A DNA stretch of 49,648 nucleotides from Myxococcaceae bacterium (lineage in GTDB: Bacteria > Myxococcota > Myxococcia > Myxococcales > Myxococcaceae): contig JADGHL010000026.1 in assembly GCA_019686135.1 (NCBI GenBank), positions 1 through 49,648 on the forward strand, in the 5' to 3' direction. Shown here piece after piece: positions 46,891-49,648 of the stretch. The position numbers and the translations under genes were made by a program. Below the pieces are notes generated by a model, which saw only the letters and a program-made list of their open reading frames with translations, was not told the DNA's origin and did not search any database. How positions within the stretch are numbered: the first letter of the stretch is position 1; each line of letters begins with the position of its first letter.

Positions 46891-47385
46891 CTACCAGCGA
46901 TTCAGGAAGTCGGTGATGGCGGAACGCGCCTCCTGGCGCGCTCTGGCCAGCGTGTGCAGGTGGTCGGCGAACGCGGGGAACTTCGCCGCGCACTGCCGCA
47001 CCAGCGCGCCGGGGATCTCCACCACCTCCACCTCCCCCACCGCCTGCGCGGACCAGGCGCGCGCGGTCGATCCGCCGAGCGCCTCCTGTTCGCCGATGAA
47101 TTCGCCCTTGCCCGCGGTGGCCACCTCCACCGGTGTCGCGCCGGCGCCCACCCAGAGGCGGACATCGCCCTTCATCACGAGGAGCAGCGCATCGCCCGGA
47201 TCGCCTTCGAGGAAGAGGCGCGCCCCGTCGACGAAGCGCCGGGCGGTCGACTGACCCAGGACGTACTGCGCGGCGGTGGGGCCGAGCAGCCGTACCAGCG
47301 GGCACCCCACCAGTTCCGCGTCGCCGAGCACGCGTTCGCCCAGGGTCATCCGCTTGAGCCCGACCTTGAGCCCCGGGCCGTTCAC
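46891..47385 (-). CDS. Cyclic-nucleotide-binding-domain protein without DNA-binding domain
   Basis: 164 residues from GTG 47385, overlapping the esterase stop as GTGA. One CAP-ED domain fills the protein (FLEGDPGDALLLVMKGDVRL, then the phosphate-binding cassette GEFIGEQEALGGSTARAWSA) with Glu and Arg where the cassette expects them. No helix-turn-helix follows. It is therefore a sensor or adaptor of unknown ligand, possibly cAMP. It is in operon with the esterase and zinc-ribbon genes. Confidence 0.85.
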   Translation of the reverse strand: MNGPGLKVGLKRMTLGERVLGDAELVGCPLVRLLGPTAAQYVLGQSTARRFVDGARLFLEGDPGDALLLVMKGDVRLWVGAGATPVEVATAGKGEFIGEQEALGGSTARAWSAQAVGEVEVVEIPGALVRQCAAKFPAFADHLHTLARARQEARSAITDFLNRW

Positions 47386-49541
47386 CGCGCCTCCACGTCG
47401 TCCGGGCGCAGCGTGCGGTACTTCGCGTCGATGTGGTCCATCAGCTCGAAGACCGCGTCGCCGTAGGGCACCGCGTCGTCGCCGGTGAAGCCGTGCCGGT
47501 TGACGTAGAAGGAGCCGGACTCGCACTCGCGCTCCCACCCGGGGAGGCTCTCGAAGGGCGTTCCCTGATCGTCGCGCTCGCGGCAGTCGCGCGCGCCGGT
47601 GGCGGCGTTGGTGAAGCAGCAGCGCCCGGACGGGAAGACGATGATCATCGGCCGAAGCTTCGGGTGGTCTCCGAGCATGTACGAGTCGGCGATGAGCGCC
47701 GTGTCGAGGAAGCCCTTCGGCTCCATCCCGTAGCCGTGCAGCATCAACAGGACCGGGTAGCGGGTCTCCGCGTTCTCCGGCAGGTCGTAGCCGGGCGGGA
47801 GGTAGATCGCGTACTCGCGCTTGCCGCCCAGGAGCGCAGAGTCGTACGTCTCGAGGTACGCGCGCTCGGAGTACGTCTTGCCGCCGAACGGCGTCTTCGG
47901 CCGGGGGAGTGACGGCCACTGCGCCGCGGCCCAGTTGAACAGCGTGTAGAAGCGGTTCACCGCCTGGGTCGGCGTGCCGACGTGATCGCCCTCCCCGTCG
48001 ATCCGGTCCTGATCGCTGGGCTGCTCCTTGCCGTAGTAGATGGCGAGGTTGGGCCCCACGTCCGTCCAGCGCCGGCCCCACGGATCGTAGGCGCCGGTGT
48101 CCTCGTCCACCATCTTCGGGATCTCGACGAAGTCGCGGTACTCCTGCGCCTCGGATGGGCCGCGGAAGTGCTTGACCAGGCCGAACACCTGCTTCGACGC
48201 CAGCCCGAAGTTGAACAGGTCCCGGATGCCGCCGTCGGCGAGCACGTTGATCCGGTGGCGCCCGGCGTCATCGAGCCGGCGGTAGTTGGTGCGCGCGTCG
48301 TAGCCGAACATCGCCTGCCGGCCGCGCGAGAGATCGTACACGCCGTTCCCCTCGCCCTCGTCGCCCGTGTCGGGAACGCCGTCCAGCCCGTCGTCGCGGA
48401 ACGGCTCGCCGTCGTCGTGGATCCAGTTGTTCTCCGTGCCCAGGGGGTTCCGGTCCGCGTCGTAGTCGTCCCCGTTGGGGTCGTCCGCGGACGGGTTGGG
48501 CGTCTGCGTGCAGCCGCCGGCTCCGTCTTCGAAGACGTTCGCGCAGCCGTCCACGCCGACGTCGTCGAAGCGCTCGTAGCCGTTGTTGATGAGCGGTTCG
48601 CCGTAGTCGCGGCGGCCGTTGCCGTTGATGTCCACCGCCAGCGCCACCAGCACCGGCTCGTTCATCTGCCGGCACGCGTCCACCTGGCCGGCGTGGTCCA
48701 GCATCACCAGCGGCAGATCGCTCTTGTTGGCGACGGCGGCGCCGCCCTTGTCCTTGCAGTACTCATTGGCGAAGGCCTCCTCGGCAGGACCGGCGGGGAT
48801 CGGCTGGGCGACGTTGGCGGGGTCGGAGCAGAAGTCGACGATCGAGAGGTCGGCGCGGCAGTAGAAGATCCGCGGCTGGCCGTCGCAGAAGGTGATCGCG
48901 TCGTACTTCCCGGTCGGGTTGTACTCGGCGTTCTTCAGCCCTTTGACGACCACCGGGTTCGTGCAGAAATCCGGCGGCGGGTGTCGCAGCCGCTCCACCG
49001 GCACGCCGGGCGGCGCGAACGGCGACTCCGGGTTGTCGTAGAGCACGTTCCCATACGCCAGCGTCAGGTCCTTGAAGAGATCGAGGTAGCTCGAGCGATC
49101 GAACGTCCCGCCGTTGGTGGTGAAGACCCAGTGGTTGAAGTCCTGCGGGTGCTCCCAGCGGATCGGCGTGGCGGGCCGCTCGCAGGCGTGGATCGTCGCC
49201 GGGTCGTTGAGCTTGCTGGGATCCTCCGCGGCGATCGCCTCGAGATCCTCGAGCCGGCAGAACCCGCCGAGGTGAAAGCGATCGATCGTCCGCAACAGGA
49301 GCGCCGCGTCGAGCGGCCCCCCCAGGATGCCGACGCCGTCGAAGCGATCCGGCCGGGACAGGCCCAATGCAGCCGTGCCGATGGCCCCCATCGAGACGCC
49401 GGAAAGGATTCGCCAGGTGGTGTGGATCTTCTGCGGAGGCGGGGGCGGCGGCGGAGTGCTCTCCTGCGGACCACACCCGTAATGAAGGAGGGAGGCGACC
49501 AGGGGGACGGCGAGCAGCCAGCGGGCGTTGGAGGGGCGCAA
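47382..49541 (-). CDS. Apparently circularly permuted esterase lipoprotein
   Basis: 719 residues from TTG 49541 (starts at 49580 and 49601 are alternatives); an in-frame TAG at 49617-49619 closes the frame upstream. A signal with Cys23 (SLLHYGCG) and a seven-Pro linker are followed at once by the nucleophile-elbow half of an esterase fold: RILSGVSMGAIGTAALG (Ser50) and GVGILGGPLDA. A long middle contains an Asp-rich segment (AVDINGNGRRDYGEP, about 303-317) and GDHVGTPTQ. The half that normally comes first is last: EYAIYLPPGYD, VLLMLHGYG, MIIVFPSG, FYVN and HIDAKYRTLRPDDVEAR at the end. Probably surface-exposed; substrate unknown. Confidence 0.85.
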   Translation of the reverse strand: MRPSNARWLLAVPLVASLLHYGCGPQESTPPPPPPPQKIHTTWRILSGVSMGAIGTAALGLSRPDRFDGVGILGGPLDAALLLRTIDRFHLGGFCRLEDLEAIAAEDPSKLNDPATIHACERPATPIRWEHPQDFNHWVFTTNGGTFDRSSYLDLFKDLTLAYGNVLYDNPESPFAPPGVPVERLRHPPPDFCTNPVVVKGLKNAEYNPTGKYDAITFCDGQPRIFYCRADLSIVDFCSDPANVAQPIPAGPAEEAFANEYCKDKGGAAVANKSDLPLVMLDHAGQVDACRQMNEPVLVALAVDINGNGRRDYGEPLINNGYERFDDVGVDGCANVFEDGAGGCTQTPNPSADDPNGDDYDADRNPLGTENNWIHDDGEPFRDDGLDGVPDTGDEGEGNGVYDLSRGRQAMFGYDARTNYRRLDDAGRHRINVLADGGIRDLFNFGLASKQVFGLVKHFRGPSEAQEYRDFVEIPKMVDEDTGAYDPWGRRWTDVGPNLAIYYGKEQPSDQDRIDGEGDHVGTPTQAVNRFYTLFNWAAAQWPSLPRPKTPFGGKTYSERAYLETYDSALLGGKREYAIYLPPGYDLPENAETRYPVLLMLHGYGMEPKGFLDTALIADSYMLGDHPKLRPMIIVFPSGRCCFTNAATGARDCRERDDQGTPFESLPGWERECESGSFYVNRHGFTGDDAVPYGDAVFELMDHIDAKYRTLRPDDVEAR

Positions 49542-49648
49542 GCGGCCGCCGATTGTAGGGAAATTGGACGTTGCATGCACGGCTGCAGAGCGAGCGCCCA
49601 CAACGCGTTCAGCACCCTACAGCGGCCCCCCTGAATGCAGCGTGGACG
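49542..49648 (-). promoter_or_regulatory. Upstream region of the permuted esterase gene, at the window edge
   Basis: 107 bp. An in-frame TAG lies at 49617-49619 (reverse strand), so no more than about 25 extra codons could precede the chosen start. It should contain the operon promoter, but no boxes are recognised. Confidence 0.3.

Follow-up and report, generated by a model that had tools for sequence, protein, structure and literature searches.

At one end of a 49,648-nucleotide stretch of myxobacterial DNA (the window, which is all of the 49.6-kb contig G000:C77 from a 5.5 Mb genome in 245 contigs) lies a gene whose product carries the motifs of a PF00756-type esterase in an unusual order. 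The question that it raises is whether a single alpha/beta-hydrolase domain has been circularly permuted, as the initial annotation had claimed. The nucleophile elbow GVSMG was found at residues 48-52, following a putative signal peptide and a proline linker as had been stated, and the segments that normally precede an elbow were indeed found at the opposite end of the protein (YLPPGY at residue 580, LHGYG at 601, VFPSG at 635, FYVN at 678 and IDAKYRT at 704). Between GVSMG and GDHVG (residue 518) extends a long Asp- and Cys-rich middle part that contains DINGNG (residue 304), and the C-terminus is reached ten residues past the Arg of YRT. A GTG at 49601 is also possible as the start of the gene. 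The upstream in-frame TAG on which the exclusion of a missing N-terminal half had been based is present, and hence no half from upstream is in frame with the esterase. The features of the locus are collected in the table.

Table. Features of the permuted esterase locus (window coordinates; residues are those of the esterase)
Feature	Coordinates	Strand	Basis
Permuted esterase, whole gene	47382..49541	-	719 aa, TTG start 49541, TGA stop 47382-47384; full-length colinear homologues
In-frame TAG 5′ of the gene	49617..49619	-	
Putative lipoprotein-type signal peptide, residues 1-23, lipobox Cys23 last, then Pro linker	49473..49541	-	Homologue alignment
beta5, nucleophile elbow, alphaC, beta6 (residues 40-73)	49323..49424	-	AlphaFold model; aligns with elbow region of ordinary esterases
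Ser50 codon, predicted nucleophile	49392..49394	-	Ser in 76/76 homologues
Cap/insert domain between beta6 and beta7 (residues 74-434)	48240..49322	-	Modelled alone
EF-hand-like loop DINGNGRRDYGE (residues 304-315)	48597..48632	-	Positions 1, 9, 12 invariant, 3 and 5 Asn/Asp, 76/76
beta7 and predicted catalytic acid motif DGGIRD; Asp441 codon 48219-48221	48162..48248	-	Aligns with paralogue VDCGTKDEFN; Asp in 76/76
beta8, His520 (codon 47982-47984), alphaF (residues 498-539)	47925..48050	-	His in 76/76; model
Moved N-terminal half: beta-strands with LPPGY, LHGYG, VFPSG and alphaB with IDAKYRT (residues 561-719)	47385..47861	-	PF00756 match; model
HGYG motif (residues 602-605), predicted oxyanion-hole side	47727..47738	-	Conservation
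Downstream gene, small Crp-like sensor (cyclic-nucleotide-binding-like) protein	46891..47349	-	Domain name by reading sequence

In a Pfam search, positions 1-64 of the PF00756 model match residues 568-637 with 33.1 bits, above the gathering cut-off of 22 bits, and 29 of 29 aligned homologues match the same family at E ≤ 0.1. The canonical colinear order, model positions 1-251 in one direction, is not what we found, as the pieces are out of order. When the profile of the family is aligned with the solved ferulic acid esterase 7xrt, three pieces match, 551-633 on chain residues 25-105, 684-706 on 119-142 and 36-104 on 142-210; they are consecutive on the chain and meet at chain residue 142. Ordinary myxobacterial esterases are matched in the cyclic order 502-569, 26-68, 339-403, and about 14 of them, among which is the paralogue L163 of this genome, show the shifted order with all main blocks. 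This out-of-order match to ordinary esterases is far beyond chance. Furthermore, once the halves are returned to the canonical order, the Pfam match runs without interruption over model positions 1-152 and rises to 37.6 bits, undoing the permutation in L058 raises its Pfam total from 45.7 to 54.3, and the hhalign score against ordinary esterases increases from 135.8 to 188.5 (E 4e-24). The permuted order also explains why family models find just half of these proteins.

The structure predicted by AlphaFold2 from 76 homologues is one compact core (pLDDT 95.3, pTM 0.93) in which the elements follow each other as beta5-elbow-alphaC-beta6, cap, beta7-alphaE, beta8-His-alphaF, a linker, the strands with LPPGY and HGYG, and alphaB. 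Comparison of this model with the PDB by VIA-align gave a sole whole-core match, the Penicillium funiculosum PHB depolymerase 2d80 (Z 16.3, 237 aligned residues, model 12-680). Canonical feruloyl esterases are the next entries, with Z of 9.4 or less, and match one half apiece, 1jt2 pairing model 11-517 with chain 162-284 and 8bbp pairing model 523-684 with chain 125-262. Such a result is expected of a sequential alignment, because the model and 2d80 share the permuted order and the feruloyl esterases do not. No match was obtained in a library of viral structures. Together, the out-of-order matches to 7xrt and to the paralogues, the gains upon re-ordering and the single predicted core support the view that one alpha/beta-hydrolase domain has truly been circularly permuted, and this sequential comparison with feruloyl esterase folds agrees with it.

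Dozens of genomes, belonging to many Myxococcota families, encode full-length colinear homologues that cover residues ~10-719 and have the same two ends. They extend from the host's own family to its order, class and phylum, with 42-66% identity in the nearer set, and identity is as low as ~32% in the set of 76 sequences. A profile query placed homologues at 80 named loci, including Polyangium isolates, one Oligoflexales genome, and MAGs labelled Myxococcaceae, Archangium and others, while a single-protein query gave none, presumably because its short peptide patterns are too strict; plasmids yielded short esterase matches only. Every full-length homologue inspected keeps the motif order. All 29 rows of alignment A1 agree in the positions of the lipobox Cys, the elbow Ser and the C-terminal motifs, and in alignment A2 nearly all members end 10-17 residues past the Arg of YRT. 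The initial annotation thus guessed rightly that this is a family-wide trait. Some members (Polyangium, Labilithrix and others) possess ~280 extra N-terminal residues, a domain that looks Ig-like by eye and precedes the permuted esterase (L092:6945-7900 and similar parts of L068, L087 and L110). In Polyangium and its relatives these extensions have no Pfam match, and none to PF00756 of their own, and the idea of a canonical esterase half upstream in the longer homologues was rejected.

Regarding catalysis, Ser50, Asp441 and His520 are invariant in all 76 sequences and occupy the elbow, beta7 and beta8 positions expected of an alpha/beta-hydrolase triad in the predicted model, which makes them the likely catalytic triad. 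Within HGYG, G603 and G605 are found in 76 of 76 sequences, H602 in 73 and Y604 in 72. The triad proposed earlier consisted of Ser50, the His of GDHVG and the Asp of DINGNG or a nearby acid. The Ser and the His stand, but the Asp of DINGNG (Asp304) starts an EF-hand-like loop in the cap, and Asp441 of DGGIRD is most likely the acid, given that the acid motif VDCGTKDEFN of the ordinary paralogue L163 aligns with VLLDGGIRDLFN of the permuted esterase. By homology and invariance, Ser50 would attack the ester, His520 would act as the base and Asp441 would orient His520, with the amides of Met51 and Tyr604 as the probable oxyanion hole.

Two other readings of the gene can be weighed against these data. 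An assembly or annotation artefact, in which two gene pieces were joined at a contig end, might be suspected since the assembly consists of 245 contigs, of which the window is one in full, and only 107 bases separate the start of the gene from the contig end. Its probability is close to nil: the same order, ends and spacing recur in many independent assemblies, including those of Polyangium isolates, a single-contig genome carries the same order (G090, with one in-frame TGA in the match), and the structure prediction gives one core at high confidence. Because the homologues are colinear with the same ends, and because the N-terminal extensions are devoid of an esterase match, both a misassembly and a missing canonical half, named earlier as possible refutations, are excluded. 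It is also improbable that the protein is a non-catalytic surface protein, for example a calcium-dependent binder that retained a hydrolase core. The large conserved Asp-rich cap, the weak Pfam score, the variation among homologues of Asp519, which adjoins His520, and the fact that no activity is known would suit such a binder; however, the Ser, the Asp, the His and most of HGYG are kept in 76 sequences despite identities down to ~32%, which is unexpected in a pseudo-enzyme. This invariance fits an enzyme without proving one.

The permuted esterase further differs from ordinary esterases by the ~360-residue Asp-rich cap, probably also rich in disulphides, which probably shapes substrate access from its place between beta6 and beta7. 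Modelled alone in silico, the cap folds by itself, with a pLDDT of 93.8 and a pTM of 0.90. In the PDB it has neither a Foldseek match at E ≤ 10 nor a sequence match; VIA-align comparison with 14 chains gave none at Z ≥ 2, which does not prove a new fold, and Pfam offered no convincing family for it, with NpwBP matches (6 of 52 members, best E 0.003) judged to reflect composition. The loop DINGNGRRDYGE follows the pattern D-x-[DN]-x-[DN]-G-x-x-D-x-x-[DE], which is conserved in 76 of 76 sequences and of which DINGNG forms residues 1-6. Loop 304-315 may bind Ca2+ and the cap may contain disulphides.

An Asp-rich module of the form GEPFxDxGxDG...DPxGDxYDxxxNPxGTEGN was also observed in the unrelated proteins L121 (581-aa frame) and L122 (643-aa frame), the latter presumably resembling neutral ceramidase; as it occurs in unrelated proteins, the module looks like a mobile, possibly calcium-binding unit. 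The large Asp-rich myxobacterial proteins mentioned in the initial annotation are accordingly of two sorts, some being family members with the extra N-terminal domain and others unrelated proteins that share just this module. The latter is also all that G147:C54 and G167:C244 share with the family, and they were discarded as candidates for unpermuted intermediates.

Next is the origin of the permutation. In extracellular PHB depolymerases with a type-2 catalytic domain, the oxyanion hole comes after the triad (PMC2666664). Type-2 dPHA-SCL depolymerases (2d80; NF050059) and the permuted esterase have in common the N-terminal elbow, the oxyanion-hole segment after the triad and the cut in the alphaB/beta5 loop, and the order that characterizes NF050059, a lipase box before the triad and the oxyanion segment after it, was found in the permuted esterase. 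In contrast, their sequence similarity is weak, the type-2 domains derive from type-1 depolymerases on our tree, and the ~360-residue insert is absent from type 2, whose catalytic segments measure 305-316 residues here. In a side observation, NF050059 matches type-1-like genes (L129-L134, L136-L156) in permuted order, 206-281 then 3-131, which confirms the relation between type 1 and type 2 within these genomes. With regard to 2d80, it was reportedly called a circularly permuted variant in a 2006 paper by Hisano, said to be in J Mol Biol 356:993.

The common cut loop, the N-terminal elbow and the rank of 2d80 as by far the best whole-core structural match would all be accounted for if the family were a divergent branch of the type-2 depolymerases that inherited their single permutation. 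We nevertheless consider this descent unlikely. NF050059 (cut-off 280 bits) has no match at E ≤ 0.001 in the source genome, the gene itself included. True type-2 genes are found elsewhere in the phylum (L127, L128, L135, L171) and allowed the two to be compared directly. The hhalign score of the family against type 2 is 32.5 in native order and 42.3 after re-ordering, compared with 188.5 against CE1 esterases, whereas a score of 200.4 was obtained between type 2 and type 1. When the re-ordered cores were placed on a tree, built on 170 columns with four type-2 rows and canonical rows all from Myxococcota, and with parts of the inter-superfamily alignment uncertain, the family plus CE1 is split from type 1 plus type 2 with support 100/100 and the permuted esterases form one clade (93/99). 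A joint clade of the family with type 2 was rejected (p-AU 0.0016), so that common descent with the type-2 domains is not what the tree recovers. These profile scores and the rejected joint clade indicate that the alphaB/beta5 loop was probably cut twice independently; two permutations at one loop are the parsimonious reading of the sequences. The view that no such permutation had been described holds for this family, for which we found no description, but not for the kind of permutation, known from type-2 PHB depolymerases.

Collectively, a permuted single-core hydrolase with a triad and a cap, permuted independently of type 2, is very probably the best explanation. Under this explanation, the old chain ends would have been joined by a short linker after alphaF and the new ends would fall in the alphaB-beta5 loop, such that translation begins at the nucleophile elbow and finishes at alphaB, and the chain would still fold as one normal hydrolase core. 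The permutation would have been fixed once, in the ancestor of the myxobacterial family. It is likely, with somewhat more reserve, that this is an independent second alphaB/beta5 permutation, fixed phylum-wide and accompanied by a calcium-bound cap whose fold is absent from the PDB. Carbohydrate esters are the substrates of the nearest relatives in sequence, and a polyester is that of the closest fold match, 2d80. The substrate is probably an extracellular polymeric or carbohydrate ester; an extracellular polymeric ester is the best guess, with about even chances.

Circularly permuted enzymes are rarely met in nature, and a break next to the nucleophile strand of an alpha/beta hydrolase has, to our knowledge, been described for PHB depolymerases only. 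If true, repeated cutting at alphaB/beta5 would mark a privileged permutation point of the fold, and with a second lineage cut there the question of a favoured site, and of what is gained by it (for example lipid anchoring near the active site), becomes testable. The analysis also supplies a large family of proteins that are probably extracellular esterases and carry a cap for which the PDB offers no fold match. PF00756/CE1 proteins (7xrt, 1jjf, XynZ) and ordinary myxobacterial esterases are related in sequence to both halves, and the core strands, the elbow and the motifs around the acid and the His are common to all of them, but the permuted esterase has its halves circularly shifted, the cap with the EF-hand-like loop and a lipoprotein-type N-terminus. 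As described in the review PMC11878206, some alpha/beta hydrolases (3fle, 2z8x, 1lgy) have their peripheral strands permuted, with just beta1 and beta2 moved and reversed; on that description they share an alpha/beta-hydrolase core with altered strand order with the permuted esterase, in which, in contrast, the break lies beside the nucleophile strand and all strands keep their direction. A search of the literature on circular permutation with esterase, feruloyl esterase or hydrolase fold, with subscription papers mostly outside its reach, returned nothing on this family; as far as that search goes, neither the family nor its independent origin nor its cap seems to have been described.

Finally, at the locus itself, Cys23 of the lipobox is aligned and invariant in 29 of 29 rows of alignment A1 and the N-termini of homologues are also signal-like, pointing to a lipoprotein-type protein that may be anchored to the membrane. 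A homologue of the downstream Crp-like gene lies directly 3′ of the esterase, ~45-125 bases away, in 18 related loci, where it is usually followed by a convergent YggS-like gene. This conserved neighbour suggests co-transcription with the esterase and no clear pathway. Two genomes carry two adjacent copies of the permuted esterase (L053 and L055; G098:C5:9045-14959 and G093:C62:11862-16590), and the match scores of both G098 copies are identical. In other cases (G141:C122:29086-30960, G090:C1:1919456-1921486 and L107), the match contains an in-frame stop or is split between frames, and these may be pseudogenes or sequence errors.
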